This document shows positions 13,824 to 40,994 of a DNA stretch of 64,000 bases, one piece after another. The notes under the pieces were generated by a model. The model saw only the letters and a list, made by a program, of their open reading frames with translations, ran no database searches and was not told the DNA's origin. This DNA is from Metabacillus rhizolycopersici (GTDB lineage Bacteria; Bacillota; Bacilli; Bacillales; Bacillaceae). Position numbers and translations under genes: made by a program. Within the stretch, counting starts at the first letter, position 1, and every line of letters begins with the position of its first letter. The stretch covers positions 1-64,000 of the forward strand of contig NZ_JAIQUM010000002.1 in assembly GCF_020075705.1 (NCBI RefSeq). Direction: 5' to 3'.

Positions 13824-13866
13824 AGTATAAACATCAATTTGTTGAACATCATTAGACATAATGTAA
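13824..13866 (-). promoter_or_regulatory. AdeR-type activator box and -10 of ald
   Basis: On the minus strand the box TTACATTATGTCTAA (13866-13852) is followed by exactly 22 bases and TATACT (13829-13824). The same box-to--10 distance occurs at five other promoters in this window. There is no proper -35, as expected for an activator-dependent promoter. Confidence 0.75.
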
Positions 13867-14050
13867 AATACATGTAAGTTTTTATGCGACATTATAGATA
13901 CCCAGAGGAAAATCTGCTCTCCCATCTTTACACGTTCCCCCCGCCAAAATAAAATTAATTGAATCATCGCATAATTTGTTGTCTCATATCTGTTTTGGAT
14001 ATAAACTGATTAGTAAGGACTTATTTTTTATTAAGGTGAGGTGTTTCCAT

Positions 14051-15676
14051 ATGAAAAATGAAATTAAGTTATCTGTGCAGGAAGTCATCCTACAAGAGCA
14101 ATTTCAACAGGCAAAAATCGTAGCTGGAAAAAATGGATTACATCGAACAGTAAAATGGGTACATATAATTGAGGTTTCTGAAGTAAGTAATCTATTGAAT
14201 GGAAATGAATTAATCTTATCAACAGGCGTTGGTTGGAAGGAAGGAAAAGCAACCTTACTCTCCCTCGTTCAGCAATTAATTGACTGCAAGGCTGCTGGAC
14301 TTTGTATAGAATTAAGAAAGTATATGACTATGACTGATGTTCCTGAAGAAACCATTCAACTTGCAAACCAATACGATTTTCCAATTATCGTATTCGATCA
14401 TGAAGTGAGATTCATAGATATTACTGAAAGCGTACACACTTTAATTATCAAAAAGCAATACCAAATGATTACAGAATTAGAGGATTATTCTCGCAGACTA
14501 AATGAGGTGCTTCTTGAAACAGACCCAATGGAGAAAATTCTAAGAATGCTGTACGAACAAATAAAGGCCCCAGTCATTTACCAAACAAATGAAGGTCTTG
14601 TAGAAATAGTTTCAAAAAAAACGAAAAAGGAAAATCAATATCTTCTCCAAATGGTCAATGATCAAAAAATCGAGCAAAATGACAGCATCATCCGTCAAAA
14701 AATCCATGTATGGAACCAAACTTTTGCTGAACTTATGATTATCTCAGAAAAAGGATCGATCCATGAGTTCGAAACATTAGTATTAGACCGAACTGTAACA
14801 GCGCTCGCTCAAGTCATATTACGTGAATTGTGGACAGAAGAGCGCAGAATGGCAAAAGAATCAGACTGGATTCAGGATTGGCTAAATGGAGAACATACGA
14901 AAGAACAGGTAGTTAAATACCTTGCAGAGCATAAACTGGACATCAATCCAAAAAAGGCAGTTGTACTCCTTCTAAATGCAAAACAACTGAACATAGCAAG
15001 TTCAACAACTACTTATCTAAAAATGCTGTTGCGTCATATTTTTCAAGAGCAAGGTTTTTTTCTTTTATCAGCTGACCTTAAAAAGACGATCGTTTTCATT
15101 CTTCTTGATAACCGCGAGGGCAATGATTGTCGAAAAAGAATAGAAGCTGGAATTGAGCATGCGTTGAAATCAGATTACTTTAAAGATGATTTTCTTTCAC
15201 ATATTCAATTCAGTGTCGGTAAAATAGTGAATCATTTGACAGAAGTAAAAATTAGTTACGAAAAAGCTAAAGAAACAGCGATTGTTAGAGATCAAGCCTC
15301 AAATAACCTATCTATTTTCTTCTATGACGACTTACATATTTATAGATTGATATATGCTGCTCAAGAACAAGGAATTCTCTCTGAATTTATTAATGATTAT
15401 TTAAAACCTGTACTTAATTATGACAAATTGTATGCTGCAAATCTAATCGATACTTTAAATGTTTATTTAGAATGTAATGGATCAAAAAAAGAAACTGCGC
15501 AACGTCTTTATATTGTAAGACAATCTCTATATCACCGCTTAAAAAAATTGAACGAGCTTTTAGGAGAAGATTTTATGATAACACCTAAACGTCAGGCAAT
15601 TGAATTCGCAGTATCCGCCTATAAATACCTCAACAAGAATGAACAAACCTTTTTTAAAGGAGAAAAATTGTCATGA
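14051..15676 (+). CDS. adeR: PucR family transcriptional activator, AdeR-like
   Basis: A 541-residue regulator. It has an N-terminal PucR sensory domain (about residues 8-125, containing VKWVHIIEVSEVSNLLNGNE), a central GGDEF-like/CdaR region and a C-terminal HTH_30 domain (ECNGSKKETAQRLYIVRQSL). It is divergent from ald, as adeR relates to ald in B. subtilis, where the PucR-type protein AdeR activates ald in response to L-alanine. The start ATG lies behind GGTGAGG; a longer in-frame extension upstream lacks a ribosome site. A paralogue lies at 37567-39183; which of the two binds the shared boxes cannot be told from sequence. Confidence 0.85.
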   Translation: MKNEIKLSVQEVILQEQFQQAKIVAGKNGLHRTVKWVHIIEVSEVSNLLNGNELILSTGVGWKEGKATLLSLVQQLIDCKAAGLCIELRKYMTMTDVPEETIQLANQYDFPIIVFDHEVRFIDITESVHTLIIKKQYQMITELEDYSRRLNEVLLETDPMEKILRMLYEQIKAPVIYQTNEGLVEIVSKKTKKENQYLLQMVNDQKIEQNDSIIRQKIHVWNQTFAELMIISEKGSIHEFETLVLDRTVTALAQVILRELWTEERRMAKESDWIQDWLNGEHTKEQVVKYLAEHKLDINPKKAVVLLLNAKQLNIASSTTTYLKMLLRHIFQEQGFFLLSADLKKTIVFILLDNREGNDCRKRIEAGIEHALKSDYFKDDFLSHIQFSVGKIVNHLTEVKISYEKAKETAIVRDQASNNLSIFFYDDLHIYRLIYAAQEQGILSEFINDYLKPVLNYDKLYAANLIDTLNVYLECNGSKKETAQRLYIVRQSLYHRLKKLNELLGEDFMITPKRQAIEFAVSAYKYLNKNEQTFFKGEKLS

Positions 15677-15689
15677 AAACAGCACCATT

Positions 15690-15737
15690 TTTCATTATGT
15701 CGTAAAATCCTGCAAAGTATTTTACGACATAATGAAA
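15690..15737. repeat. Perfect 19-bp inverted repeat after the PucR gene
   Basis: TTTCATTATGTCGTAAAAT and its exact reverse complement are separated by 10 bases, 13 bases behind the stop codon. There is no T tract, so it is either a Rho-independent terminator without a tail or a small palindromic repeat. The rest of the gap up to 15915 shows only a weak T-rich hairpin near 15840-15885. Confidence 0.6.
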
Positions 15738-15915
15738 GCGCATCCAAAAGAAGGTTGAATTAAATTGTCAGGATGTTTACTAAAATAATTTTAAAAGGCA
15801 TGAGTCTATGTTAGCTGATAATTAATATGATGTGTAAAACAGCGGACGTTTCTAAGTCTTAAAGAGAGATCCGTTTTTTTCATTGCTATATACTATTATA
15901 TTATATAAGTAGCGA

Positions 15916-16212
15916 TTAATTTTTCGACATGGCTAGCAATCCAATACGTTGAAGTACTTTCTCTGGACAAGTATCTAGATATTCCATAAAGGAGAACACT
16001 GATTTTCGAATCTCTTGTCTTGTGGCATGAAATCGATTGACGATGACACTTCCTTTTAACCACCCCAAAATAATACGCTCAACAGTATTTAAGTTGGGAG
16101 AGTAGGGTGGTAAAAAGAGAAACGTGAGGTGATGCTCATTCTTTTTCAAAATACGATTATCTTTTACTTCTACAGCTTCAACTGCTGAATTGTTTTGATC
16201 TGCTGTAATCAC
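15916..16212 (-). pseudogene. IS630-type transposase remnant, C-terminal end
   Basis: The 98 codons contain LFLPPYSPNLNTVERI, the characteristic third-acid (E) segment of IS630/Tc1-type DDE transposases, followed by the usual basic C-terminal stretch. The first two catalytic aspartates and over two thirds of the protein are missing, and no terminal repeats or TA duplication were recognised. It is a dead fragment. Confidence 0.8.
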
Positions 16213-16260
16213 TTCTCCGTTTATTCATTAATCTATTCCATTTTATGAACATCAATCGAC

Positions 16261-16794
16261 TCACTCAAAAATATCCCTAGCAAGAATGTAATTTGCATAT
16301 TCTTTTGCACTTTCTTCTATCTCTACATCAATAGAAGTATATGCTCCATTGAACACAAAAGCTGGTAAAAATCTAGTACCTATTAAATTACTAGTTGCTT
16401 GGAATGGTTTTAGGAGCTCACTCATAGAAAACTGATTACGCCCACCAGCTTGATATCTTTCTTTCGCACTACCAGTTGATACTGCTAAAAGAAACTCCTT
16501 CTGATGCAATTTAGTTCCGTTTGAACCATATGCCCAGCCATGAGTCAGTACTTCATCTTGCCACTTTTTAAGAAGCGGCGGAGAGCTATACCAATAAAAC
16601 GGGAACTGCCAAACAATCCGATTATGCTCTTCACATAATCGTTGTTCCCTTTCAACATCAATTTTTTCATCTGGATATTGCTTGTAAAGTTCATGAATTG
16701 TAATATCTGGGTGCTTCTCCAATTCTCCTAACCATGCTCTATTCACAACTGATTTTTCAATATTAGGATGAGCTACGATGACTAATACCTTCAT
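16261..16794 (-). CDS. NAD(P)H oxidoreductase, flavodoxin-like (YwrO/KefF type)
   Basis: A 177-residue flavodoxin-fold quinone reductase. It begins MKVLVIVAHPNIEKSVVN (FMN phosphate loop) and has FPFYWYSSPPLLKKWQDEV near residue 70 and the LAVSTGSAKERYQAGG loop near 110, as in B. subtilis YwrO/general stress protein 14 and KefF-like proteins. The family reduces quinones or nitro compounds with NAD(P)H. The ATG is preceded by GGAGGATA at 6 bases; a longer reading frame upstream has no such site. It is monocistronic, between the IS remnant and the end of the flavoenzyme operon; the link to that operon is unclear. Confidence 0.85.
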   Translation of the reverse strand: MKVLVIVAHPNIEKSVVNRAWLGELEKHPDITIHELYKQYPDEKIDVEREQRLCEEHNRIVWQFPFYWYSSPPLLKKWQDEVLTHGWAYGSNGTKLHQKEFLLAVSTGSAKERYQAGGRNQFSMSELLKPFQATSNLIGTRFLPAFVFNGAYTSIDVEIEESAKEYANYILARDIFE

Positions 16795-16961
16795 TAATTT
16801 ATCCTCCAAGCATAGATTTGAACATTTTCTATTACACTTAATAAAAATATGAATAAAGAAAGAAATGCCGCAATAAGTAAATCTCAAAAAACTGTTTTAA
16901 TTCTCTTCTTACACGAGTTATAATCGATTCAATAAAAGACCACCATACTTATAAACTAAGA

Positions 16962-18173
16962 TTACATTAAGATTGCCTCTCCACGAGATTCATGAAATTT
17001 ATGATGAAGTTCCATACGTGCTTCTTCAATGCCTGGCTGGAATTGGATGAGTGCTTTGCGTCGTGTTTCCACAACCTCCACAATAGCCTCATCAAGCTTT
17101 TCATTAGCACGATTTCCTAAAGCATTAAGTTCATGGGCAATTGCAAGTCCAGCAACTGTTCCTTGAGCCCTAGCTACTTTAGCGCTCTCAACCCCTGTAA
17201 TATTACCTGCAACATATAAACCATTGAGATTGGTTTGCATAAATTCATTGTGCAAAGGAACATGTCCACCTAGTTCTGGAACATAGCAGAAAGAGCAACC
17301 AGCAACAGCGGCCAGTTCTGACATTGGTGTGAGCCCACCTGCAATACAGACAAAATCAGCAGGTACCACTTTTTCCGTCCCATGTATAACCTCGCCAGTT
17401 GCAGAAATATCAGCAATACGAACACCTTCCACTTGATTTTCTCCAACTATTTCAAGAGCTGTTTTGCGCAATTGAATAGAAATTCCCCACATTTTAAATC
17501 CATTTTTCGGGTACAAACGTGCACCAAGTTTCGCGTTTACCCATTTCCCACCAAATCGTATTAAAGGCGAAGGGGCCAAATGTGTTAATCTTAAAAGAGA
17601 TTCCATCATTTTCTCTGGTTTGGCTGCATCACCGGATAGTAGACTCGGTTGTGGAAGCAATATACTCTTAATATGAACGCCACATAATTGTAACTCCCTC
17701 GCAATCGCTACTGAGAGTACATTTACACCAATAATAATTCCTTGCTCACCTGGCTTCACACGATGCACATTCCCCATTACCTGAGCAGCTCCAATCGACA
17801 TTACGCCTGGAAGAGTCCATCCTGGGATAGGAATAGGAGTTTCTGATGCTCCTGTAGCAAGCAAAAGACATTTAGACTCGATTATTTTATCAGTAGTATA
17901 CACACACCATCCATTGTCTAATTTTATTAAATCGTATACAGATACTCCACATTGGATATTTACACCAAGTTGAATCGCTCGTTCATAAAGTTTTTCTGCT
18001 TCTGCAATACCATTGACCCACTTACCATCAGGTTCCTCGTGCAACTGCCCCAATAAACGCCCTCCAGGTTTTACGAACTCATCTAGTATGCATACCTTTA
18101 ATCCATTTTCGGCTGCCGAAATAGCCGCTCCTAACCCAGCTGGGCCCGCACCTACAATCACAAGATCAATCAT
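16962..18173 (-). CDS. FAD/NAD(P)-dependent oxidoreductase subunit (HcnB / D-hydroxyproline dehydrogenase alpha-like)
   Basis: A 403-residue flavoprotein of the HcnB/opine-oxidase-A/D-hydroxyproline-dehydrogenase-alpha type. It has the FAD motif LVIVGAGPAGLGAAISAAENG, an ATGASETPIPIPGWTLPGV segment near residue 105 and a GLYVAGNITGVESAKVARAQG FAD motif near 320; it lacks the redox-active CxxC of thioredoxin reductases. In known relatives this subunit works with a small [2Fe-2S] protein and a DadA-like FAD subunit, both of which are in this operon. It starts within the stop region of the upstream Fe-S gene (4-base overlap), so it is cotranslated. It is the last gene of the operon. Confidence 0.8.
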   Translation of the reverse strand: MIDLVIVGAGPAGLGAAISAAENGLKVCILDEFVKPGGRLLGQLHEEPDGKWVNGIAEAEKLYERAIQLGVNIQCGVSVYDLIKLDNGWCVYTTDKIIESKCLLLATGASETPIPIPGWTLPGVMSIGAAQVMGNVHRVKPGEQGIIIGVNVLSVAIARELQLCGVHIKSILLPQPSLLSGDAAKPEKMMESLLRLTHLAPSPLIRFGGKWVNAKLGARLYPKNGFKMWGISIQLRKTALEIVGENQVEGVRIADISATGEVIHGTEKVVPADFVCIAGGLTPMSELAAVAGCSFCYVPELGGHVPLHNEFMQTNLNGLYVAGNITGVESAKVARAQGTVAGLAIAHELNALGNRANEKLDEAIVEVVETRRKALIQFQPGIEEARMELHHKFHESRGEAILM

Positions 18174-18505
18174 AACTTACCTCCATTTAGCGAAGTTGTA
18201 GGAAAAGAAACATCCGATTCAATTTTCATATTGTTTTCTACTGGAGTTAAACAAGCACGAACTGTACTTTGATCATTTACTCTTACTCTACACTCAAAGC
18301 AATGACCAATATTACAATAAATCCCTCGTGGAGTCTCCTTGTCCTCATGAAAACGCAAAGTCCTCATACCAGATGCAAGTAAAGCAGATGCGATTGTATC
18401 TCCTTCATATGCTACATATTGCTGCCCGTTAAAATGTATCTTCACTTGCTTTTTATTTTCCAGATTTCCTAAAACCGAATGATGACTAACTCTCATTGAA
18501 TTCAT
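18170..18505 (-). CDS. Small [2Fe-2S] protein (HcnA / D-hydroxyproline dehydrogenase gamma-like)
   Basis: A 111-residue ferredoxin-like subunit of about the size of HcnA or the gamma subunit of D-hydroxyproline dehydrogenase. It has the family opening VKIHFNGQQYVAYEGDTIAS, then GIYCNIGHCFECRVRV with two cysteines of the plant-type cluster, and a later TVRACLTPV cysteine. A fully canonical CxxxxCxxC set is not complete (the first cysteine is replaced in this alignment), as in some HcnA-type proteins. It overlaps both neighbours by 4 bases. It is predicted to shuttle electrons between the two flavin subunits. Confidence 0.75.
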   Translation of the reverse strand: MNSMRVSHHSVLGNLENKKQVKIHFNGQQYVAYEGDTIASALLASGMRTLRFHEDKETPRGIYCNIGHCFECRVRVNDQSTVRACLTPVENNMKIESDVSFPTTSLNGGKL

Positions 18506-18774
18506 TTTAACTCCCCTCCTAATACGCCAAATGTAACTGGGCGAACAGGAGGACGATAGCTAAGTGACACTTCGTTTGAAATCGGTCGTCCGCCTAATTG
18601 CTCCACTATTCGGTCAATCGTACAGCGGCAAGTACGTCCCCCACAAGGCCCCATTCCTGCACGTGTTCGTAACTTTACCTCTCGCGCGGAACATTGAAAA
18701 CGCTCAACCGTTTCTTTAATTTCTTTCAACGTGATTTCTTCACATCTGCATATTACGGTTTGATTTTCGTCCAT
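18502..18774 (-). CDS. BFD-like [2Fe-2S]-binding protein
   Basis: A 90-residue protein with VICRCEEITLKEIKE and GMGPCGGRTCRCTID: four cysteines in the CxC...CxxxxC(xC) pattern of the bacterioferritin-associated-ferredoxin-like [2Fe-2S] domain. In many dehydrogenases of this class the domain is fused to the C-terminus of the HcnB-like subunit; here it is a separate gene at the head of the three-gene Fe-S/flavin block. The ATG follows GGAGGAGA; the longer frame upstream lacks a ribosome site. Electron transfer within the complex is inferred. Confidence 0.78.
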   Translation of the reverse strand: MDENQTVICRCEEITLKEIKETVERFQCSAREVKLRTRAGMGPCGGRTCRCTIDRIVEQLGGRPISNEVSLSYRPPVRPVTFGVLGGELK

Positions 18775-18918
18775 GGAATTTCTCCTCCAGTACTTTTTAG
18801 AATAACTTGATTGAATGCCACATCCAATTTCATCTATATCTTTTTTCAGGGGCAAAGGAAACAAACGATCCTTTATTTAAAAATATGGGTATTTCAATTA
18901 ATGCTATATAAGATAAAA

Positions 18919-18994
18919 AGACATCAAACATTTATCCTGCGTAAAATAGATGTGCAACCAACTATTTTTACGCAGAAGAGAACGTTAGATGTCT
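18919..18994. repeat. Long inverted repeat inside the operon
   Basis: AGACATC (18919-18925) pairs with GATGTCT (18988-18994), and within them CTGCGTAAAATAG pairs with CTATTTTTACGCAG. It lies in the 300-base gap between the racemase gene and the Fe-S block, otherwise empty (18775-19081). It could attenuate transcription between operon halves or be a decayed miniature element. Confidence 0.55.
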
Positions 18995-19081
18995 CATACG
19001 TACTGAGTAGCACATCAAAGAATTTAATTAAAATACTGCAGTGCTTGTCTATCCTATATTTAGCTTATTCTGTGCTTATTT

Positions 19082-19876
19082 TTAGATAAAACCGTAATAC
19101 GGCTTTTGACTCGTAGCAAAATGCGCCCACTTGATCATAGTAATAAAATCAAATACCGGCAGTTTAACAGCCCTTTGAATATCAGCTGCATATGGCGGTA
19201 AATCACTGCATTCTAATAGTATTGCGCCAATTTCCGGATTTTCATTAACCATATTAATAGCTGCTTCTACTACTTCTTTTCTCACCTTTTCGTTATCAAA
19301 AGACCCTCTGCTCTGAATGATAGCTGAAAATTCAGGTAATCTCCCTAAGTCTCTAACAACACAAATACTCGGATCATCTATACCACAACTTTTAAATAAG
19401 TTTGGGGTAATGCCATGTGCATCGGCTGTCAACATACCAATTTTTTGAGTAGGCTTTAAGCCTGTTTTAATCCAAGGTACTTGAACAACACTTGATAGAT
19501 AAACGGGTATATCAACAGCTGCCGCTACTTTATCTTGGAAATTACCAAAAAAACCACATGCCGCACATATTGCACGCGCTCCTTCGGCTTCAAATTCTTT
19601 TGCCGCTTTTATAATCTCTTCCAATAACGTTGGATCACCTGCATGGATTCGTTCTTGGTTGCAATTTGGCACTACTTTTAACCTGACAGGAAAATCATAA
19701 GTACTTAGATTCGCAACATTTCCGGGTAAAACAGGGTACCAGCACTCATCTAAATACAGTATCCCAACTGAATATCCCGCGACATACTGGCCCTTTTTCA
19801 TCGTAATAATCGTACTTTCTTTTTCCTTCCCTAAATACCCATATTCCCGTTCATCAATCAATGCTTTAGAGTTCAA
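19082..19876 (-). CDS. Aspartate/glutamate racemase superfamily protein
   Basis: A 264-residue protein with the two catalytic-type cysteines of the superfamily, in ICAACGFFGNFQ (near residue 128) and ILLECSDLPPY (near 225). The superfamily contains Asp/Glu and hydantoin racemases, maleate isomerase and arylmalonate decarboxylase, so function cannot be set from family alone. Its operon otherwise encodes a D-hydroxyproline-like degradation route that would need a 2-epimerase, and no proline racemase family gene is present, so an epimerase/racemase role is an attractive inference. The start is a TTG behind AAGGAGGAG, directly after a hairpin. Confidence 0.7.
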   Translation of the reverse strand: MNSKALIDEREYGYLGKEKESTIITMKKGQYVAGYSVGILYLDECWYPVLPGNVANLSTYDFPVRLKVVPNCNQERIHAGDPTLLEEIIKAAKEFEAEGARAICAACGFFGNFQDKVAAAVDIPVYLSSVVQVPWIKTGLKPTQKIGMLTADAHGITPNLFKSCGIDDPSICVVRDLGRLPEFSAIIQSRGSFDNEKVRKEVVEAAINMVNENPEIGAILLECSDLPPYAADIQRAVKLPVFDFITMIKWAHFATSQKPYYGFI

Positions 19877-19891
19877 TTAAGGCTCCTCCTT

Positions 19892-19929
19892 ATAGTTTCA
19901 GAGAATACATTTGTATCCTCTGAAACTAT
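19892..19929. promoter_or_regulatory. Intercistronic hairpin abutting a ribosome binding site
   Basis: ATAGTTTCAGAG and CTCTGAAACTAT flank ATACAttTGTAT, giving a nearly perfect 18-bp stem. On the minus strand the stem ends right before AAGGAGGAG of the racemase gene. It may protect mRNA or modulate initiation. Confidence 0.55.
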
Positions 19930-20018
19930 TAATCTCATTTTAGCTTCTGTCACACTAAGTTGACTGAATCCCCTAATTTTTCAATACATGGGTGGTAATT
20001 ACAATTTCATTTTATTCT

Positions 20019-20954
20019 TTACACTCCGGAAACACTCGTTTTTTCCGGTGAATTAACTTCATATCCTAACTTGATCAGTTCCTCTTTAATCTGTATTTTT
20101 ATTTCGTCAGTAGGTTGTGTCAAAGGCTTTCTCACTTTTCCACCTTTTATTCCAATCAAGTCCATACCTGCTTTTACCGGCCCTGGATATGGATTACCTT
20201 CCGCTTCCATTAAGCCATAAATACCTGATAATTTTCGATTCAAATCACGTGCAGCATTTAGATCGCTCTTCTCAACTACCAGCTCGTAAAGCTCTACAAG
20301 TTCCTTAGGAAGTAAATTCACGAGGATTCCAAAAGCACCCTGTCCTCCAACAGAGAAAGTAGGGAGGATAAAGTGTTCTTCACCGGTAAATACAGTAAAG
20401 TTTTCAACATCCTTCGTCAAAGCCACAACATTACATAGGTGTCCAAAATCTGCAGATTCTTTCACGCTTACAATGTTTTCTTCCTGACTCAACTCATAAA
20501 TCATTTCAGGAGAAATCGTAACATTGGTTGCCCCTGGATAATTGTAAATGACGATTCCGACATTTGATTTTGCAGCTATTTCTTTGAAAAATTCACGAAT
20601 TCCTTCTTCACTTGTCTGATGATAATAAGGAGGCAGAGCCAGTCCCCATTTAGCGCCACATTCTGCAGCAAAATTGGCAAGTTCAATTGTTTCCTCGGCA
20701 GTAGAGCATCCAACACCTGCCATAACAGGTACTCTTCCTGCAGCATATTCACAACCAGCCTTAATTAAACTTTTTCGTTCCTCCAATGACATAACATGAT
20801 ATTCACCTGTTGTGCCCCCAACTAAAAGGCCATGGACGCCATTTTCGATTTGAAAGTCGATTACTTTCTTATAGGACTGAAAATCAATCGTTTCGTCATC
20901 ATTGAATGGGGTAATTAATGGTACAAAAATTCCTTTTGGTGCAATAGTCATCAT
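20019..20954 (-). CDS. Dihydrodipicolinate synthase family; candidate pyrroline-4-hydroxy-2-carboxylate deaminase
   Basis: A 311-residue TIM-barrel DapA-family protein. It shows GVHGLLVGGTTGEYHVMSLEE (substrate loop GTTGE), the tyrosine region IVIYNYPGATN near residue 140 and the Schiff-base lysine in NIVSVKESADF near 168. The family includes N-acetylneuraminate lyase, KDG aldolases and the deaminase of trans-4-hydroxyproline breakdown. Adjacent genes for a DadA-like flavin subunit, an aldehyde dehydrogenase and Fe-S/flavin subunits match the hydroxyproline route, in which it would convert pyrroline-4-hydroxy-2-carboxylate to 2-oxoglutarate semialdehyde. True DapA is less likely outside a lysine cluster. 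AGGAGG precedes two tandem ATGs. Confidence 0.72.
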   Translation of the reverse strand: MMTIAPKGIFVPLITPFNDDETIDFQSYKKVIDFQIENGVHGLLVGGTTGEYHVMSLEERKSLIKAGCEYAAGRVPVMAGVGCSTAEETIELANFAAECGAKWGLALPPYYHQTSEEGIREFFKEIAAKSNVGIVIYNYPGATNVTISPEMIYELSQEENIVSVKESADFGHLCNVVALTKDVENFTVFTGEEHFILPTFSVGGQGAFGILVNLLPKELVELYELVVEKSDLNAARDLNRKLSGIYGLMEAEGNPYPGPVKAGMDLIGIKGGKVRKPLTQPTDEIKIQIKEELIKLGYEVNSPEKTSVSGV

Positions 20955-21002
20955 GTATTCCTCCTATTATTAACCTATTATTTTAATTCTCATTCATTAG
21001 TT

Positions 21003-22196
21003 TTAGATATTAACAGCTTGTCTTTTCTTGTATCTAGAATAATTTAATTTATCAATGTTAAAGTCTGTTGGCTCACCTGTAATAAGCTGGGCAACCATCC
21101 TTCCAGTGATAGGCGACATACTAATGCCATCTCCTTCATGTCCACTGGCAATAAAGAACCCAGGTACTTCTTCCACTTCAGACACAATCGGAAGATGATC
21201 TTCAACCCAAGGTCTTACCCCCGCATAAGCTCTTATACAGTTAATTTCCTTTAATTTTGGTAAAAAGCGAATGGCTCTCTCGGCAATTGCATGCATAACC
21301 TCGATTTCAGAGCGAATATCAAACCCTTTAAAGGCACGATGTCCTCCAACTAAAAAGTTATTTGCATCAGTCGGCTCAATCGTAAAAGCTACATTATGTT
21401 TTTCTACTAATTCACTGACATTTCTTTTAAAATTAATATCTTCGAATTTTGATAGCATATAACCGAATTCATGAACCTTTTGACTTGCGACCTTAAACGG
21501 TGTTTTCTCAGATATTAATACCATGCCTTTTCTCGGTTTAATGGGTATATGAATGCCTACCATTTCTGCTATTTTAGGTGACCATACACCGGCACAATTA
21601 ACAATCCTCTTTGTTTTAAAGGTGCCTCGGTCTGTTACTACACTCTGAACTCTTCCTTTGTTATCCAGTGAAATATTCTGCACAGCGTGATGGTCATAAA
21701 CCTTCAAACCTAGCTTTTTTCCTTCTTCAACAAATGCATAACATAATTTATATGGGTTCATGGACGAGTCTACTTCTGTCCATACCCCTCCGGCTAAATC
21801 ATCAGCTAAATATGGCTCAATTTCATGCAATTCATGCTTGTCAACCATTCGCATATCATAGCCATCTTTAGCTTGCTGAGAAACATACCCTCTGGCAATT
21901 TCCAACTCTTTCTCTGTTTCACAAACATAAAGACTTCCTCGTGAAGCAAATTCGAAATCGACTGAAAATTCCTTTGCCAACTTTTTAAAAAGCTGAATAC
22001 TTTCATAACCTATTTCAGTATCAATACCTGGTTTTTTATCACAAATTAAGGCTACTGCATCACATCTGCTAGAAGTACCTGATGCTACACCGCCTTTTTC
22101 AATTAAGGCAACTTCAAGGCCCTTTTTCACCAAATGATATGCTACACTAGATCCGATTACACCCGCCCCAATGACAATTACGTCAAAATTTCCCAT
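21003..22196 (-). CDS. DadA-like FAD oxidoreductase (D-hydroxyproline dehydrogenase beta-like)
   Basis: A 397-residue D-amino-acid-oxidase-type flavoprotein. It has DVIVIGAGVIGSSVAYHLVKKG at the N-terminus, the FAD-adjacent GTSSRCDAV segment, and a C-terminal RAYAGVRPWVEDHLPIVS followed by GFFIASGHEGDGISMSPITG. It resembles HcnC/opine oxidase B/glycine oxidase and the catalytic beta subunit of heteromeric D-hydroxyproline or L-proline dehydrogenases. With the HcnA- and HcnB-like genes of the same operon it would form a membrane-associated or soluble multi-flavin dehydrogenase oxidising a secondary amine. The ATG follows GAGGGGA. Confidence 0.8.
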   Translation of the reverse strand: MGNFDVIVIGAGVIGSSVAYHLVKKGLEVALIEKGGVASGTSSRCDAVALICDKKPGIDTEIGYESIQLFKKLAKEFSVDFEFASRGSLYVCETEKELEIARGYVSQQAKDGYDMRMVDKHELHEIEPYLADDLAGGVWTEVDSSMNPYKLCYAFVEEGKKLGLKVYDHHAVQNISLDNKGRVQSVVTDRGTFKTKRIVNCAGVWSPKIAEMVGIHIPIKPRKGMVLISEKTPFKVASQKVHEFGYMLSKFEDINFKRNVSELVEKHNVAFTIEPTDANNFLVGGHRAFKGFDIRSEIEVMHAIAERAIRFLPKLKEINCIRAYAGVRPWVEDHLPIVSEVEEVPGFFIASGHEGDGISMSPITGRMVAQLITGEPTDFNIDKLNYSRYKKRQAVNI

Positions 22197-22233
22197 TTGT
22201 AATCCCCTCTAAGAAAATATAGTTACTCTATTA

Positions 22234-23754
22234 CTATTTGCCTTCAAAAAAACCTGATGGTTCTACATTAAGATTGATATTAATTTGCTTTGTTTCTAGA
22301 TATTCTTCAAATCCATATGTTCCTAGATCTCTACCGATTCCACTTTGCTTGTATCCGCCCCATGGTGCTTCGTTAAACGTTGGGTGATACGTGTTGATCC
22401 ATGTAATCCCTGCACGTAACCTGCGAATCACACGCTGAGCTTTAGCACCGTCAGTCGAGAACACAGCACCCGCTAAGCCAAAAACTGTACCATTTGCTAA
22501 TTCAATGGCTTCCTCTTCTGTTTTGAAGGTTTGAATGACTAAAACTGGACCAAAGATCTCTTCCTGAACAATTCTCATATTAGGTGTCGTATCTCCAAAG
22601 ATCGTTGGTTCAACAAAATAACCTTTCCCAAAATCTCCTTCGACAACTCGGTTGCCTCCACAAAGTAAGGTAGCGCCTTCATTTTTTCCGATCTCGATAT
22701 AATCAAGTACAGTATTCATATGATCTTCTGACACCAGTGGTCCCATTTCAATTCCTTCAACCCAACCTGGACCTATTTTAATCATCTTGGCACGTTTGAC
22801 TAACTCAGGCACAAATCTTTCATATAAACTTTCTTCCAATATTAAACGTGAACCCGCAGAACACACTTGGCCTTGATTTGCAAAAATAGCATATAAGGCA
22901 TAATCAACTGCTGTTTCAAAATCTGCATCCGCAAACACGATATTAGGAGATTTTCCGCCTAATTCTAAACTAATCTTTTTCACTGTATCCGCTGCTGATT
23001 TCATTAACCTAATTCCTGTATCAGTACCCCCGGTAAAGGAGATTTTATCGACATCAGGATTAGAAACTAATTCAGCTCCAACCTTACTTCCAGGACCTAA
23101 CACTAGGTTAACGACACCAGGTGGAAATCCTACTTCATCAATAATGTCAAACAAGCGTATGACAGAAAGTGGTGTCTGTTGTGCTGGTTTCACGATCACC
23201 GTACAACCTGCAGCAAGGGCAGCAGCAATTTTTTGGTTTGCCATGACTAACGGGTAGTTCCATGGAACGATTAATCCCACAACACCTATTGGTTCACGGA
23301 CAACCATTGCTTGGATGTCATCCGGAACATCATAGGTCTGACCATGTGGTTTTGTTGCTAACCCTGCATAATAACGTAATTGGTTTACAGCATCTTCAAC
23401 GTCACCCAATGACTCTCTTAATGTTTTTCCATTATTCAATGTATCTAAATAAGCAAATTCTTCTTTTCTTTCTTCTAATTTATTTGACACTTGAAGAAGA
23501 AGTTCTGCACGATGTCTAGCCTTACTATTCATCCATCCATTATCATAAAAAGCTCTTTTGGCAGCTTCGATCGCCTTTTTGACATCCTCTTCAGATCCCT
23601 CAGTAACTGTTCCAATTATCTCTCCATTTGCAGGATTAATTATTTCTCTTGTTCGATTTGATTCACTTAATACCCATTCACCGTTGATATACATTTTTTG
23701 AGTAATATCATTGTTCACTAAAGCAGATTGAACATCATTTTCTACTAAATTCAT
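22234..23754 (-). CDS. NAD(P)+-dependent aldehyde dehydrogenase
   Basis: A 506-residue ALDH with PWNYPLVMANQKIAAALAAG (cofactor entry), FTGGTDTGIRLMKSA (Rossmann turn), the general-base glutamate in ISLELGGKSPN near residue 268 and the catalytic cysteine in FANQGQVCSAGSR near 302. Substrate cannot be read from sequence. As the first gene of the operon it would oxidise 2-oxoglutarate semialdehyde to 2-oxoglutarate if the hydroxyproline-like model holds; betaine-aldehyde-type substrates are the alternative. The ATG is preceded by GAGGTGA. Its promoter carries the AdeR-type box and an overlapping cre-like site. Confidence 0.82.
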   Translation of the reverse strand: MNLVENDVQSALVNNDITQKMYINGEWVLSESNRTREIINPANGEIIGTVTEGSEEDVKKAIEAAKRAFYDNGWMNSKARHRAELLLQVSNKLEERKEEFAYLDTLNNGKTLRESLGDVEDAVNQLRYYAGLATKPHGQTYDVPDDIQAMVVREPIGVVGLIVPWNYPLVMANQKIAAALAAGCTVIVKPAQQTPLSVIRLFDIIDEVGFPPGVVNLVLGPGSKVGAELVSNPDVDKISFTGGTDTGIRLMKSAADTVKKISLELGGKSPNIVFADADFETAVDYALYAIFANQGQVCSAGSRLILEESLYERFVPELVKRAKMIKIGPGWVEGIEMGPLVSEDHMNTVLDYIEIGKNEGATLLCGGNRVVEGDFGKGYFVEPTIFGDTTPNMRIVQEEIFGPVLVIQTFKTEEEAIELANGTVFGLAGAVFSTDGAKAQRVIRRLRAGITWINTYHPTFNEAPWGGYKQSGIGRDLGTYGFEEYLETKQININLNVEPSGFFEGK

Positions 23755-23839
23755 TACAGTCACCTCTTCATCGTCTTATTATGAGAAATTCACTAACTAT
23801 TTTTTAAGTTCATAGAACTTATAATTTGTGATTAATCTA

Positions 23840-27031: not shown

Positions 27032-27074
27032 TTTCACCACTCTAAAATGTAGTTATGTATCCATCCTTCATTAA

Positions 27075-34525: not shown

Positions 34526-35866
34526 CTACAATTGACAGATACTTTCCTTTAATGTTTTCACAATAAAAGTAAAGTCATCTTCTGTAATGCTTAATGGAGG
34601 TGAAAGCTGCAAAATATTATTATATCCAGCAACGGTATCACCATTTTTCCCAATAATCAGACCCTTTTCTTTGCAAAGCCCAATGACTTTATTGACCTTT
34701 GCCACCTCAGCTGGTGCTTTTGTTTGTTTATCTTCTACTAGTTCAATACCCAAAAGAAGACCTTTTCCGCGAACATCCCCTACATTTGGATGTTCTTTAA
34801 TTTCCTCTAATTCACGTAACAGACGTTCACCTAATTCCTTTGAGCGTTCAATTAAATGTTCGTTTTCAATAATTTCTAAATTCTTCAACGCCAGAGCGCA
34901 AGCAGCAGGGTTGCCACCAAATGTATTAACATGGCGCAAGCGGTCATAATCTTCACTTCCTGAAAAAGCCTCATAAATTTCTCTTTTCACTGCAGTTGCT
35001 GATAAAGGAAGATAAGCACTCGTAATCCCTTTAGCCATTGTGATGATATCTGGTTTCACATCATAGTTCATAAATCCAAACGGTTTTCCTGTTCGACCAA
35101 ATCCGCAGATCACTTCATCACAAATCAGTAGTGCACCATGTTGCTCACAAATTTCTTTTACCTTTGCCATATATCCATCTGGAGGCATTAAAATTCCCCC
35201 ACCAGTAATAATTGGTTCCATAATGACTCCAGCAACGGTTTCACTTAACTCCCATGTCATGACACGATCAATTTCCTCAGCACTTGCAAGTGTATGAACA
35301 TCATCCGGATTACGATACGTATCAGGTGGTGCTACATGTAAAAAACCATTTCCTAGAGGCTCATATTTATACTTACGTTGTGCTTGGCCTGTTGCGGCAA
35401 GAGCTCCCATTGAATTCCCATGATATGCGCGATAGCGAGAAATAAACTTATAGCGATTCGTATCCCCTTTTTGCTGATGATATTGACGAGCAATTTTAAA
35501 TGCCGTTTCATTTGCTTCAGATCCACTGTTCGAGAAGAAAATCACATATTCATCGCCAAGCCATTCATTTAATTTTTCAGCTAATTTAATGGCTGGAACA
35601 TGACTTTGTGATAAAGGAAAATAAGGCATTTCCTCTAGTTGTTCAAAAGCCGCTTGAGCAAGCTCTTTACGACCATAGCCAACATTTACACACCACAGAC
35701 CAGACATACCGTCTAAATAGCGATTACCATCGATATCTGTTACCCATGCACCTTCTGCTTTGGTAATAATTAAATTGGATGGATTAGGATTTGCTCCTCT
35801 CATCGCATGCCAAAGGTACTTTTCATCTGTTTTTTGTAAATTTTGCGTTTGTTCTGTCACGTGCAT
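34526..35866 (-). CDS. Class III aminotransferase (omega-amino acid/beta-alanine:pyruvate type)
   Basis: A PLP-dependent class III transaminase of about 446 residues. It opens with YLWHAMRGANPNPSNLIITK and has the phosphate-binding FFSNSGSEANETAFKIAR, LLICDEVICGFGRTGKP and the PLP lysine in DIITMAKGITSAYLPLSA near residue 280. The family moves the amino group of beta-alanine, GABA, taurine or similar amines to pyruvate or 2-oxoglutarate. It lies 45 bases downstream of a (methyl)malonate-semialdehyde dehydrogenase in one operon, which favours beta-alanine:pyruvate transamination, giving malonate semialdehyde and L-alanine (then used by Ald). Start choice between ATGs at 35881 and 35866 is uncertain; the second has GGGG upstream. 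Confidence 0.85.
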   Translation of the reverse strand: MHVTEQTQNLQKTDEKYLWHAMRGANPNPSNLIITKAEGAWVTDIDGNRYLDGMSGLWCVNVGYGRKELAQAAFEQLEEMPYFPLSQSHVPAIKLAEKLNEWLGDEYVIFFSNSGSEANETAFKIARQYHQQKGDTNRYKFISRYRAYHGNSMGALAATGQAQRKYKYEPLGNGFLHVAPPDTYRNPDDVHTLASAEEIDRVMTWELSETVAGVIMEPIITGGGILMPPDGYMAKVKEICEQHGALLICDEVICGFGRTGKPFGFMNYDVKPDIITMAKGITSAYLPLSATAVKREIYEAFSGSEDYDRLRHVNTFGGNPAACALALKNLEIIENEHLIERSKELGERLLRELEEIKEHPNVGDVRGKGLLLGIELVEDKQTKAPAEVAKVNKVIGLCKEKGLIIGKNGDTVAGYNNILQLSPPLSITEDDFTFIVKTLKESICQL

Positions 35867-35911
35867 CCTATTCAACCCCATTCTATCTTTTTTATGGTTT
35901 TACAAGACTTT

Positions 35912-37369
35912 TTAATAACGAGCAGTAAGCATTTTTTTACGAGTATAGAACTCAACTCCATCTTTTCCATTCGTATGAAGATCACCGTAGAAGGATTTCT
36001 TATAACCTGAGAATGGGAAGAATACCATCGGAGCAGGAACTCCCAGATTGACCCCAAGCATACCTGCATCAATTTCTTCACGGAATTCACGAATCGCTTT
36101 CGCACTGTCAGTATATAAGCATGCACCATTCGCAAATTCTGACTTATTTGTAAGTTCAATTGCTTCCTCTAAGCTCTCCACTCGAACAATCGATAACACA
36201 GGAGCGAAAATTTCATCTTGCCAAATTTTCATATCAGTTTGGACATTATCAAAAAGTGTAGGACCTACAAAGTATCCTTGCTCGTCTGCCGCGTCCTGTC
36301 TTCCGTCACGAACAAGGGAAGCACCCTCACTTTCTCCAAGTTCAATATAATGAAGAGTACGTTTTTTATGTGAATCACGAATGACTGGTCCAAGGAATAC
36401 ACCTTCATCCATCCCATTACCTATTTTGATTTCATCTGCTGCTATTTTAAGTCGATTTACTAATTCATCTGCAACATCCCCAACAGCGACTACAACTGAC
36501 GCCGCCATACAACGTTCACCTGCAGATCCAAATGCAGCGCCAATGATATTTGTGACAGTATTATCTAAATCAGCATCTGGCATGACGATCGAATGATTTT
36601 TTGCTCCTGCAAGAGCTTGTACACGCTTACCGTTCGCTGCTGCTGTTTTGTAGATGTACTCAGCCACAGGTTGAGAACCAACAAAGGATACAGCTTTAAC
36701 ATCTTCATTGTCTAAAATGCCATTCACAACATCATGTGCACCGTGAACAATATTTAATACGCCATCTGGTAGACCAGCTTCTTTAAATAGTTCAGCTAAG
36801 CGATTAGCCAGCAATGGTGTTCTTTCTGATGGTTTTAAGATAAAAGTATTGCCGCATGCAATAGCAAGTGGGAACATCCAGCATGGAACCATCATTGGAA
36901 AATTAAACGGTGTTATTCCCCCAATTACTCCAATTGGATAGCGATACATTCCTGATTCAACCCCAGTAGCGATATCTGGAAGCTGATCTCCCATCATTAA
37001 AGTTGGTGCACCTGCAGCAAATTCAACACACTCTATCCCACGTAGAACTTCTCCATATGCTTCGTTATAGCTTTTTCCATTTTCTAAGGTAACGAGTTTT
37101 GCTAGCTCCTCCCAGTTATCAACTAATAGCTGTTGATAGCGAAAAAGAATTCTAGCACGCCTTGGTACTGCAACCTTTCTCCATGTTTTGAATGCTTCTT
37201 TTGCAGTTGACACAGCGTGATTTAAATCTTCTCGTGTGGAAAGTGGTACACGAGCAATTATCTCTCCAGTTGCTGGGTTAGGTACTTCTTCCATTTGTTC
37301 ACTTGTAGATTCAACCCATTTTCCACCGATATAGTTCTTTAATGTTTGAACAGTTTGTGTTAATTCCAT
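35912..37369 (-). CDS. mmsA: CoA-acylating (methyl)malonate-semialdehyde dehydrogenase
   Basis: A 485-residue ALDH of the MmsA/IolA branch. It has [56 protein letters not shown] (the family asparagine replaces the usual glutamate of hydrolytic ALDHs) and the catalytic cysteine in [13 protein letters not shown] near residue 285. The enzyme turns malonate or methylmalonate semialdehyde plus CoA and NAD+ into acetyl-CoA or propionyl-CoA, CO2 and NADH. Operon position ahead of the omega-transaminase indicates beta-alanine (or 3-aminoisobutyrate) breakdown. The ATG follows AGGAGG. The promoter has the AdeR-type box. Confidence 0.92.
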
Positions 37370-37414: not shown

Positions 37415-37457
37415 ATTATATTAGGCGAAAATAACTCTATCATTAGACAATGTGTAA
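37415..37457 (-). promoter_or_regulatory. AdeR-type box and -10 of mmsA operon
   Basis: On the minus strand TTACACATTGTCTAA (37457-37443), 22 bases, then a perfect TATAAT (37420-37415). This is the best match to the shared consensus. Confidence 0.78.
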
Positions 37458-37519
37458 AGTATTTTGCGCATTTTTTCTACATTAGCGTGGTTATCATAAG
37501 AAACTAGTAATAAGTTGTG

Positions 37520-37566: not shown

Positions 37567-39183
37567 TTAGGATATTGAAGCATATTCCAATGATGACCTA
37601 GACGCAGATGCATATTCATAGGCAGAAATCGCTACTTCAATCGCTTGACGTTTATAAGGCTCCATGAAGTCCTCTCCAATTAGTTCATACAATTTGTCTA
37701 ATCGATGATAAAGTGTTTGCCTGACAATATGAAGTTGTTCAGCCGTTTCCTTTTTTGCCCCTTTGCATTGCAAATAGATTTTTAATGTTTTTAGCAACTC
37801 TCCATTTTTCTGTTGATCATGCAATAATACAGGTCCTAAATAATCAGAAATGAAATCCCGAAGAACGCCCTGTTCATTAGCTGCTAACACTAGTCTAAAA
37901 ATATATAAGTCTTCATAAAAATATTCTTTTAATTCATTCGGCATTTTTTCCTTAATGTTCAAGGTCTCTTTTGCTGTATGATAGCTATGTTTAACATGAC
38001 TTAAATTTTTAATAATTTTTCCGACACTAAATTCAAGTTGAAAAAAATTCTGTTTTTTTATAAACTCAGACGTTTTCAAACAATCAATTCCTTCTTGCAC
38101 TCTACGTTTAAAATCATCAGTTTTCAAATTATTCAAAAGGATAAAGGTTATCTGATTTTTCTCGATATAAGATAAAAGAAAAATGCCTCGTTGTTCAAAA
38201 ATAGAGCGGAAGTATACTTTTAAGTAGGTGAATTCGGAAATTACTTTGTCTAAGTTATCAGTTTTACAAAGGAAAACAGTACATCCATTCGGTTTTAGAT
38301 TAGGTTCAAGATCTGAAAGATATCTATGGATTTGTTCATCACTATGCTCTCCTTCAAGCCAACATCGAACCCATTCGGATTCTTTAGCTTTCCTTTGCTC
38401 TTCGATATATAATTCACGTAATAGACTTTGAGCTAAGGCGATAGAGCTCCGATCTAAAATGAGAGATTCAAATTCCGTAATGGCCTCTGCTTCAGAAATG
38501 ATGAAAAGATCCGCAAAAGTCTGATTCAAAGCCTGTACAGATTGATGGGCGATATTCATATGTCTTGGTATCTGGTTATCTTTCAGAAGTTGTGATATTT
38601 TTTCTTGCTCTCGTTGTGTTTGTTTTGAGATGACTTGAACTTTGCCTTCGTTTGAAACATAAAAAACGGTCATTTTTAAATGTTCGTGTAAAAGTTGCAA
38701 GATTTTCTGTTGTGGGTTTGAGGATAAAAGTAATTGGTTTAACCTATTTGAGTATTCTTCTAAATCAGAAAGAATTTGATAATGCTTTTTTATTAATAGA
38801 CTATGTATCTCTTGTGTAATATCAATAAACCGAACTCCCTTAAAGAAAACAATTAATGGAAAATGATGAGCATCAGCCAATTTTATTACTTCTTCTGGGA
38901 TGGCGGATATATAAGTTCCTAATTCAATACAAATTCCAGCTGCGTTAGAATCAATGGCCTGTTGAATAAATGAAACAAAACCTTCTTTATTCTCTTTCCA
39001 TCCAATCCCTGTCGAAAGGATAAGTTCATTTCCATTTAATAAGTTTTCAATAGACGTTACCTCCAGAACATGAACCCATCGGACGAGCCGACTAAGACCA
39101 GCTTTCCCTGCTACTACTTTTGCTGATACGAAATGTTTATTTTGTAAGATTTCATGTACCGATAATTTAACTTCTAAGTTCAT
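37567..39183 (-). CDS. PucR family transcriptional regulator, paralogue of the ald activator
   Basis: A 538-residue protein with the same architecture as the regulator at 14051-15676: N-terminal PucR domain (RLVRWVHVLEVTSIENLLNG), central CdaR/GGDEF-like region, C-terminal HTH_30 (CKGAKKETAEQLHIVRQTLY). Long identical stretches show recent paralogy. It lies upstream of the mmsA/transaminase operon on the same strand but behind its own terminator. It is likely to control beta-alanine/omega-amino acid use through the shared box. The start ATG follows AAGGGGGA; a longer reading frame lacks a ribosome site. A cre-like site lies in the upstream region. Confidence 0.88.
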   Translation of the reverse strand: MNLEVKLSVHEILQNKHFVSAKVVAGKAGLSRLVRWVHVLEVTSIENLLNGNELILSTGIGWKENKEGFVSFIQQAIDSNAAGICIELGTYISAIPEEVIKLADAHHFPLIVFFKGVRFIDITQEIHSLLIKKHYQILSDLEEYSNRLNQLLLSSNPQQKILQLLHEHLKMTVFYVSNEGKVQVISKQTQREQEKISQLLKDNQIPRHMNIAHQSVQALNQTFADLFIISEAEAITEFESLILDRSSIALAQSLLRELYIEEQRKAKESEWVRCWLEGEHSDEQIHRYLSDLEPNLKPNGCTVFLCKTDNLDKVISEFTYLKVYFRSIFEQRGIFLLSYIEKNQITFILLNNLKTDDFKRRVQEGIDCLKTSEFIKKQNFFQLEFSVGKIIKNLSHVKHSYHTAKETLNIKEKMPNELKEYFYEDLYIFRLVLAANEQGVLRDFISDYLGPVLLHDQQKNGELLKTLKIYLQCKGAKKETAEQLHIVRQTLYHRLDKLYELIGEDFMEPYKRQAIEVAISAYEYASASRSSLEYASIS

Positions 39184-39244
39184 TAGAAAATTCCCCCTTT
39201 TTTTACTTATAAATTGCTTCAATATTTTCTTGAAATTTGCATCG

Positions 39245-39688: not shown

Positions 39689-40570
39689 ATGACACTTAGT
39701 CGATTTGAAGTCTTTCATACAGTAGTCGAGTCAGGGAGTCTAACCAAAGCCGGGGAAATGTTAAAATTAACACAATCAGGTATTAGCCATGCCATTAATA
39801 GTCTTGAAAACGAATTAGGCTTTACTCTGCTAACTAGGGGGAAATCAGGCATTTCTTTAACAAGTAATGGCGAACGGATGCTAGCGTATATTCATGATAT
39901 CTTAGTCTTAAATGATAGAATGAAGCAAGAGGCTGCAGCAATCAATGGTTTAGAGCTTGGTGTAGTGAGAATAGGCACATTTACAAGTGTCGCTACACAG
40001 TGGTTACCCCAGATTATTAAACAGTTTCAAGATCATCATCCAGGAATCACGTTAAAATTGTTTGAAGGTGATTATTCCACCTTAGAACAATGGGTTTCAA
40101 ACGGAGTCATTGATTGTGGCTTTCTCACGTTACCTACACCAAAGTCGCTTGAATTTTTCCCTTTAAAAAAGGATAAAATGATGTGCATTCTATCAGAGCA
40201 GCACCCTCTTCATAAACTAGATAAAATTTCCTTCAAACAAATCGAAGCAGAATCGTTAATTATGCCCAAAGAAGGATGGGGCAATGAAATCAATCAAATT
40301 TTTAAAGACAACAATATAAAACCTACGATTAAATTCGAAGTATCAGATGATCAAACAATTATTTCCATGGTACAAGCCAATTTAGGCATCGCCATACGCC
40401 CTGAAATGACGTTATCTTCTATCCCTGATAACGTTCGGATTCTTAATTTAGAAAAAGAGTCTTATCGTTTTATAGGTGTCGCTACAAAGCCTAATATGTC
40501 TCCTGCCACTAAAAAATTTATTGATTGTGTTCACTCCTGGTTAAAGGAGCAAAAATTACTAGATGTTTAA
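39689..40570 (+). CDS. LysR family transcriptional regulator
   Basis: A 293-residue LTTR. The N-terminal winged HTH reads RFEVFHTVVESGSLTKAGEM and LTQSGISHAINSLENELGF; a linker helix and a periplasmic-binding-protein-like effector domain follow (VRIGTFTSVATQWLPQIIK onward). The ATG lies behind AAAGGAG. It is divergent from the PucR gene with no obvious target operon beside it, so its regulon cannot be stated. A terminator follows. Confidence 0.88.
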   Translation: MTLSRFEVFHTVVESGSLTKAGEMLKLTQSGISHAINSLENELGFTLLTRGKSGISLTSNGERMLAYIHDILVLNDRMKQEAAAINGLELGVVRIGTFTSVATQWLPQIIKQFQDHHPGITLKLFEGDYSTLEQWVSNGVIDCGFLTLPTPKSLEFFPLKKDKMMCILSEQHPLHKLDKISFKQIEAESLIMPKEGWGNEINQIFKDNNIKPTIKFEVSDDQTIISMVQANLGIAIRPEMTLSSIPDNVRILNLEKESYRFIGVATKPNMSPATKKFIDCVHSWLKEQKLLDV

Positions 40571-40619
40571 CAGTATAAACGTTTTTTACCGACTCAAACT
40601 TTTGGATACAAAAATCGTT

Positions 40620-40665
40620 AATAAGGTGCTTTTCGCTTTAAAATCACCTTATTATTGATGTTTTT
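40620..40665 (+). terminator. Terminator after LysR gene
   Basis: AATAAGGTG / CACCTTATT with a 16-base loop is followed by ATTGATGTTTTT. Confidence 0.7.
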
Positions 40666-40713
40666 CCACTATTCATGGATATATCAATGTTATCTCATAG
40701 CTAAAGAATACAA

Positions 40714-40896
40714 TTATAGAATTTCCTTAATACCAGATAAACGAATAGAACATACCTGATGATTCTCATCTTTTAAAGAAACGGTCTGTTCGTATAAATC
40801 AAGTTTGTGAACACGACCCTTGCATGTTTGTAACACTCCGTCCTTATAATAAGTAATCGTAATGAAATGGATTTTTGTTAATTCTTTCAAAATCAT
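40714..40896 (-). CDS. YolD-like small protein
   Basis: A 60-residue protein reading MILKELTKIHFITITYYKDG, then GRVHKLDLYEQTVSLKD and ending IRLSGIKEIL. This is the compact beta-barrel pattern of the YolD-like family (YY.DG, G.V..ld...., I.L..I..I). YolD proteins are small and poorly characterised, often linked with UvrX-type polymerases, which are not present here. The ATG follows AAAGGAG at 8 bases. Unexpectedly its promoter carries the AdeR-type box with a perfect -10, putting it in the amino-acid regulon. Confidence 0.65.
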   Translation of the reverse strand: MILKELTKIHFITITYYKDGVLQTCKGRVHKLDLYEQTVSLKDENHQVCSIRLSGIKEIL

Positions 40897-40951
40897 ACAT
40901 GTATCTCCTTTCAAACTAGTATTTTATAAAATTCAACGATCTTATGAGCTA

Positions 40952-40994
40952 ATTATATTTTTTCAAAAAAACACTTTCATTAGACGGTGTGTAA
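40952..40994 (-). promoter_or_regulatory. AdeR-type box and -10 of the YolD-like gene
   Basis: On the minus strand TTACACACCGTCTAA (40994-40980), 22 bases, then TATAAT (40957-40952). Sequence just upstream of the box (AATGTAGAAAAAA) is also shared with the mmsA promoter. Confidence 0.75.

Follow-up and report, generated by a model that had tools for sequence, protein, structure and literature searches.

A box at a near-fixed distance from the -10 element marks a probable PucR-type regulon for amino acid catabolism in Metabacillus rhizolycopersici and its relatives

The gene cluster and its six boxed promoters

We analysed a 64,000-nucleotide stretch of the Metabacillus rhizolycopersici genome (positions 1 to 64,000 of contig NZ_JAIQUM010000002.1; hereafter, the window), which contains a cluster of predicted amino acid catabolism genes with six promoters that share a sequence box, together with genes for two PucR-type regulators, PucR1 and PucR2. 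A preliminary description of the window had reported six boxes directed towards minus-strand genes, each separated by 22 nt from a TATnnT hexamer. All six are present as placed there, with zero to two mismatches to TTACACAnTGTCTAA, and the hexamers TATACT, TATCCT, TATTTT, TATCAT, TATAAT and TATAAT, in window order, each begin exactly 22 nt past their box. Family scans likewise upheld the gene calls of that description (ald, the mmsA/aminotransferase pair, the AGCS symporter, a short-chain dehydrogenase, SDR, and the aldehyde dehydrogenase). The conserved site is 18 bp long, TTnACAnnnTGTCYAATG; it begins one base before the box as originally delimited and ends in TG.

Boxes, -10 hexamers and the genes that they precede are all on the minus strand. 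The first box (13850..13867; TATACT at 13824..13829) lies before ald, encoding alanine dehydrogenase (12596..13762; TIGR00518, 610 bits for a cut-off of 391.85). The second (23866..23883; TATCCT at 23840..23845) precedes an operon with a predicted role in amino/imino-acid catabolism (16261..23763), assigned from family scans, which encodes an aldehyde dehydrogenase, a DAO oxidoreductase (flavoprotein), a DHDPS-family enzyme and an Asp/Glu racemase-like protein, as well as BFD [2Fe-2S], Fer2_4 [2Fe-2S], Pyr_redox and Flavodoxin_2 proteins. We take this gene set to resemble a D-hydroxyproline-type route; sequence matches to the DHDPS-family, racemase-like and DAO enzymes did not point to definite substrates, and for this reason we only infer hydroxyproline-like catabolism, from the domain make-up.

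Of the remaining boxes, one (25874..25891; TATTTT at 25848..25853) is upstream of the gene for an AGCS amino-acid:sodium symporter (24093..25595; PF01235, TIGR00835) and another (28009..28026; TATCAT at 27983..27988) upstream of the SDR gene (27158..27883; PF00106). The fifth (37441..37458; TATAAT at 37415..37420) serves the target that is most common among relatives, an operon of mmsA, for a CoA-acylating (methyl)malonate-semialdehyde dehydrogenase (35912..37369; TIGR01722, 634 bits, cut-off 448.5), and a class III aminotransferase gene (34526..35881; NF005812, 836 bits, cut-off 488) whose product may be a beta-alanine:pyruvate transaminase. The last is a variant, with C instead of T at position 10 (40978..40995; TATAAT at 40952..40957), before a yolD-like gene for a small protein of 60 amino acids (40717..40896; PF08863), which we regard as the oddest member of the regulon. 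Finally, pucR1 (13976..15676, plus strand) is divergent from ald, and pucR2 (37567..39222, minus strand), whose product is the proposed activator at the box, lies upstream of the mmsA operon. The two proteins are 49% identical and both exceed the curated cut-offs for PF07905 (N-terminal) and PF13556 (HTH_30, C-terminal), which makes them PucR-type.

The box and the geometry of its promoters

The box alone is unremarkable in the window: at up to three mismatches it has 16 matches for 9.8 expected, a number reached by 6 of 100 shuffles. Combined with a 22-nt gap and TATnnT, and with up to two mismatches in the box, it occurs six times, and never in any of 60 Markov-1 simulated windows; among the gaps of 10 to 35 nt tested, only 22 gives more than one site, with one each at 15 and 34. 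Together with the genome scans described below, the simulations tell against chance as the origin of the sites.

The box is an imperfect dyad, with its centre at about -42 when the -10 hexamer is set at -12 to -7, a figure that depends on predicted -10 elements and on the standard numbering of start sites. Such a position is that of class II activation, with a single site near -41.5 over the -35 position, and it bears out the class II geometry first proposed for one common box. The accompanying claim that these promoters have no -35 needs qualification, as a weak ATGAxx lies 17 bp from the -10 in four of the six sites, overlapping the 3' end of the box, and is common in relatives; it is only a degenerate -35. 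In 49 mmsA sites (from 45 loci picked by similarity and four loci kept apart, see below), ATGAAx is the prevailing hexamer at 17 bp from the -10 on its upstream side and, of 14 offsets compared, this one comes closest to TTGACA, as a partial match (3.49 of 6). The -10 begins with G in 33 of the 49. These weak promoter elements and the rigid distance would fit a dependence on an activator.

The overlap of the box with the -35 position also keeps repression by PucR2 in play, and tells against activation: for the PucR of B. subtilis, repression is reported from boxes that overlap the -35 and activation from boxes that lie upstream of it (Beier 2002, through an excerpt of PMC10242094), and the window box overlaps ATGAAx. 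We nevertheless judge repression to be improbable. With a poor -35, and with G at the first position of the -10 in most mmsA sites, these promoters seem so weak that a repressor would hardly be needed; the fixed gap, with the box at -42, suits activation; and characterised PucR-type proteins are mostly activators, according to an excerpt of PMC7652997.

Relatives with the same gene cluster

A genome scan with PucR2 yielded eight loci, with titles that include Alkalihalobacillus, Metabacillus, Domibacillus, Peribacillus, Niallia and Bacillus taeanensis, and seven genomes (G001-G007) were then searched for the box pattern. At up to one mismatch, the pattern has matches in all seven cluster genomes, and all of the 22 zero-mismatch matches found genome-wide sit upstream of cluster genes, including one, before ald, that is on a separate contig of the draft G006. 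The typical gene order is LysR, pucR2, boxed mmsA, aminotransferase, boxed AGCS, sometimes SDR, then the boxed aldehyde dehydrogenase operon and boxed ald, with variations among relatives, and every cluster has a PucR2 orthologue (73-80% identity). The mmsA box stands at 22 nt in six of the seven genomes and at 23 nt in G002. The ald box is also kept in six, there being no ald in the stretch of G004 examined, and so is the AGCS box; the aldehyde dehydrogenase operon is boxed in all seven, with TAATAT as the -10 in G005 and one box mismatch in G003. Among 21 genomes of the genus of G002, a zero-mismatch match was found in G002 only.

The boxed yolD-like gene lies beside LysR-pucR2 in four of 12 genomes (the window, G005, G007 and G390), and was not found in the fetched loci of the other eight. 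In all four, the box carries C or A, not T, at position 10, with TATAAT at 22 nt.

One contig titled as a Chryseobacterium metagenome-assembled genome (L007) also has a pucR2 of Bacillus type, together with a box without mismatches; this contig is probably misbinned.

Conservation across the order

We extended the search to 397 genomes from the order of G005, where the exact pattern has 27 sites in 17 genomes, versus a single one for a control pattern read backwards. Ten of the 27 fall in the clusters of G003, G005 and G007. A boxed mmsA, with a gene nearby for a PucR 31-60% identical to PucR2, occurs in G252, G404, G332 and G238; G390 holds a cluster of the window type, and G013 and G027 have the same arrangement as the first four, with one mismatch in the box pattern. 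Exact matches in G139, G167, G185, G223, G331 and G421, and two in G390, are away from mmsA, and chance is the probable explanation for those in G149 and G235, which overlap open reading frames. In loci L096, L097, L098 and L103 an exact box with a -10 at 22 nt, away from mmsA, precedes a possible solute-symporter operon or ABC transporters, which are possibly transport targets.

When the gap was left free, from 8 to 34 nt after the box, 73 distinct sites were retrieved in 70 of the 397 genomes, 67 of them at 22 nt, for only two matches of the backwards-read control. The preliminary description would have been undone by a motif that is common and unlinked to -10 elements, and in these related genomes we find the opposite. 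A PucR of the PucR2 clade (E 1e-40) is encoded in 69 of the 70 genomes with the box, compared with 182 of the 397 overall (Fisher p 3.5e-26, a value that overstates the association since the genomes are related and the counts are not independent).

This association also bears on the general nitrogen regulators TnrA and GlnR, which could be thought to bind the box given its similar TnACA and TGTnA letters and the nitrogen genes that it precedes. We consider this very unlikely, because the box goes together with a single PucR clade, present in fewer than half of the genomes, and because the GlnR consensus TGTNA-N7-TNACA (excerpt of PMC9894248) has its half-site letters in the opposite order to that of the six boxes.

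To limit circularity, 54 loci were chosen by PucR similarity and not by the box, from those listed among 193 matches, and their upstream regions were scored with a position weight matrix for the box positions only; none of the 54 was in the training set. One of them, L151, is in a genome with an exact-pattern match on another contig, and loci L152-L157 were kept apart, five of them from genomes with exact-pattern matches and one being a second PucR locus of G409. An mmsA gene is nearby in 45 of the 54 loci, and the best box upstream of mmsA scores above 9.4, the 95th percentile for 483 control upstream regions, in all 45, with 38 scoring at least 15; the control maximum was 21.7, and some high-scoring controls may themselves be second boxes. 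Among the 38 strongest mmsA boxes, NATNNT occurs at exactly 22 nt in 37, and at 20, 21 or 23 nt in none. The ald gene is present in 12 of the 54 loci.

Several observations weigh against the box being the operator of a PucR clade with a fixed geometry, besides the overlap with the -35 position and the relatedness of the genomes. There is no mmsA in nine of the 54 loci, and seven of the 45 mmsA boxes score only 10-14, under the 99th control percentile of 17.9. Five of these seven (L166, L171, L182, L183 and L185) read as a 23-nt spacing; with the mmsA of G002, they show that the distance first described as exactly 22 nt, which stands for all six sites of the window, is not invariant. Likewise, 22 nt is not the listed distance for six of the 73 sites of the free-gap scan; one of them, in G123, also has GATAAT at 22 nt (L173). 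The strict TTTACA pattern is missing from 113 of the 182 genomes with a clade PucR, which is in part due to the strictness of the pattern itself. Several other AGCS copies in the relatives have no box, and neither does the lysR-pucR2 intergenic region. Lastly, the agreement of ATGAAx with TTGACA (3.49) is barely above that at the second-best offset (3.37, for an unphysical 24-bp spacer), so that ATGAAx may be part of the operator and not a -35.

A class-wide draw produced matches in five of 121 genomes, all five already met in earlier scans, and in none of the 112 newly numbered genomes, which only suggests that the box is rare outside the order.

The regulator that reads the box

The preliminary description attributed the regulon to one or both PucR paralogues, on the model of AdeR. 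A PucR-type protein is still the best candidate, and the choice can be narrowed to PucR2 as the conserved partner of the box: an orthologue of PucR1 was not found in the seven relatives with the cluster, though six of them keep the ald box. In all seven, PucR1 finds its best match in the PucR2 orthologue (48-50% identity), and a second match above 40% occurs only in G004 (41%), indicating that ald promoters can carry the box in genomes where no orthologue of PucR1 was found. AdeR proved a poor model; PucR1 and PucR2 score 53.7 and 42.1 bits, respectively, for the AdeR equivalog NF058503, with a cut-off of 700, and we rejected an AdeR identity for either. The regulator is probably PucR2 and its clade, not AdeR.

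In a midpoint-rooted FastTree of 86 PucR proteins, read from its topology, PucR1 groups with a protein from L139, next to the PucR2 orthologues and inside the box-carrying group. Each of the eight positions of the predicted recognition stretch, VRQTLYHR, is at least 95% conserved among the 81 PucRs of the clade; PucR1 has VRQSLYHR, and the consensus of the five outgroup PucRs is HRNTLLYR. No solved relative of PucR2 was found by sequence at E 0.001.

These data allow for two different roles of PucR1. It could act alone, regulating the whole set as an AdeR-like alanine activator, as would suit its place beside ald, its resemblance to PucR2, its nearly identical recognition stretch and the position of its nearest relative, from L139, upstream of a boxed mmsA. 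We find this unlikely in view of the score for AdeR, and the relatives with a boxed ald but no PucR1 orthologue found disfavour PucR1 as the sole regulator. Alternatively, both PucR proteins may bind the same box in this genome, each promoter then integrating two signals. Their common clade and recognition stretch, and the boxed mmsA adjoining the closest relative of PucR1, speak for it, whereas binding by PucR1 could be limited to the ald site, or the protein may have diverged; to us the matter is nearly balanced, leaning slightly against. Operator sharing of this kind extends the assignment to PucR2, and does not exclude it.

The LysR-type protein encoded at 39671-40570 would be another candidate as the box binder, as a relative of its gene is found beside pucR2 in six of the seven cluster genomes (in G006, the contig ends there). 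We rejected it, and hold it to be highly improbable, because at 54 of 54 more distant PucR loci no LysR match of at least 45% identity was found in the 15-20 kb covered and yet the box persists at mmsA.

Comparison with known PucR-type systems

The box WWWCNTTGGTTAA of the B. subtilis PucR, a regulator of purine catabolism and thus also a PucR-type catabolic regulator, appears to share CnTTRG with the reverse complement of the window box. Few operators of PucR-type proteins have been characterised; in excerpts of PMC7652997, they are given as an inverted repeat of 24 bp for AdeR and of 17 bp for PutR, two 21-bp repeats for GabR, and a site that is not palindromic for PucR, unlike the imperfect dyad near -42 of the window, which also precedes other genes. 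As with AdeR, which activates ald according to the same source, a PucR-type candidate is associated here with alanine dehydrogenase, but the window proteins match the AdeR model in their C-terminal half only and far below its cut-off, and the regulon comprises several operons, with mmsA and not ald as the most common target. A putative AdeR site has been reported in Paenibacillus (excerpt of PMC9894248).

Another PucR-type activator, B. subtilis PutR (excerpt of PMC7652997), serves proline use, a target other than those of the window regulators. Corynebacterium glutamicum GabR is described in the same source as a PucR-type activator of an aminotransferase/semialdehyde-dehydrogenase operon akin to the mmsA operon, with inverted repeats immediately upstream of the -35; it is called a local regulator, having its two repeats in one promoter region, as opposed to one box at each of six promoters in the window.

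PucR-type regulators are already known, and what we find of interest in the present system is the regulon, with a geometry that is nearly fixed and its particular make-up in the lineage of the window. In open-licence literature searched by title and the start of the abstract, we found no paper that deals with the box, or with regulation of mmsA or of uracil breakdown by a PucR-type protein in Bacillus.

Proposed mechanism and metabolic sense

From the comparisons above, it is quite likely that the box serves as operator for PucR-type activators of one distinct clade, comprising PucR2 and its relatives, acting by class II activation. A protein of this clade would sit on the imperfect dyad near -42, overlapping the weak ATGAAx -35, and help the sigma-A RNA polymerase to use a -10 placed 22 nt away, possibly in response to beta-alanine, alanine or a semialdehyde.

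The common target of the clade looks like mmsA in beta-alanine/uracil breakdown. MmsA and the aminotransferase may convert beta-alanine, the end product of uracil breakdown, to acetyl-CoA and, should the amino group be passed to pyruvate, the product of ald would restore this acceptor from the alanine that the transaminase makes. Several of the boxed clusters resemble clusters for reductive pyrimidine breakdown, going by gene names that we assigned from N-terminal sequence; no pyrimidine genes were noticed among the open reading frames scanned in the window, a scan that covered part of them. The regulon first envisaged, for alanine, beta-alanine and imino acid use, holds for its links to alanine and beta-alanine and its several operons, but it is not alanine-centred across relatives, where the common target is mmsA, often beside putative genes for uracil breakdown. 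Bacillus megaterium reportedly has a uracil-to-acetyl-CoA pathway, going by the title of one study cited in PMC7332683. Pseudomonas putida PydR, which would share a role in reductive pyrimidine breakdown with the window regulators, is said in the title of another study cited there to be a RutR-like repressor, and is not PucR-type.

In the lineage of the window, the promoter module also stands before ald, AGCS, SDR, the amino/imino-acid oxidation operon and yolD. A tentative extension, which we believe somewhat more doubtful than probable, is that a rigid cassette of operator, degenerate -35, 22-nt gap and -10 was redeployed as a unit, from an old use in uracil/beta-alanine breakdown to positions before alanine, imino-acid, transport and yolD genes, and that both PucR paralogues read it, as activators that have their recognition helix in common and possibly respond to different effectors.

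These results provide a likely operator, geometry and regulon for a PucR-type clade occurring, at the cut-off used, in nearly half of the sampled genomes of one order. They raise the questions of what controls uracil/beta-alanine breakdown in Bacillus relatives, of why the distance from the box to the -10 hardly varies, and of whether regulons may expand when the same promoter module is put in front of further genes.

Additional box types and other features of the cluster

A second class of box, TTnACAnnnTGTATARTG, was seen upstream of putative pyrimidine genes in L142 (16422), L144 (17826), L149 (18584), L151 (17968) and L154 (1839), followed by TAAAAT, here too after 22 nt. Between putative pyrimidine genes of L140 there is also a strong box in reverse orientation (13878), without a -10 at 22 nt, which possibly reflects another mode of action.

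Two genes of the window appear to be disrupted. At 32006-34424, alignment indicates that eutH is interrupted by an element of the IS200/IS605 type bearing TnpB (32689-34158), which separates eutH pieces at 32015-32542 and 34332-34424; and another SDR gene, at 26281-27217, falls into two reading frames when compared with an intact SDR of 293 amino acids in L045. The region 28229-31721 encodes a Kinase-PPPase-family protein, a probable regulator of pyruvate,phosphate dikinase, followed by an open reading frame of 894 amino acids that is probably the dikinase, a call made without a family scan. Relatives of both are found near ald in L041, which fits with pyruvate use.

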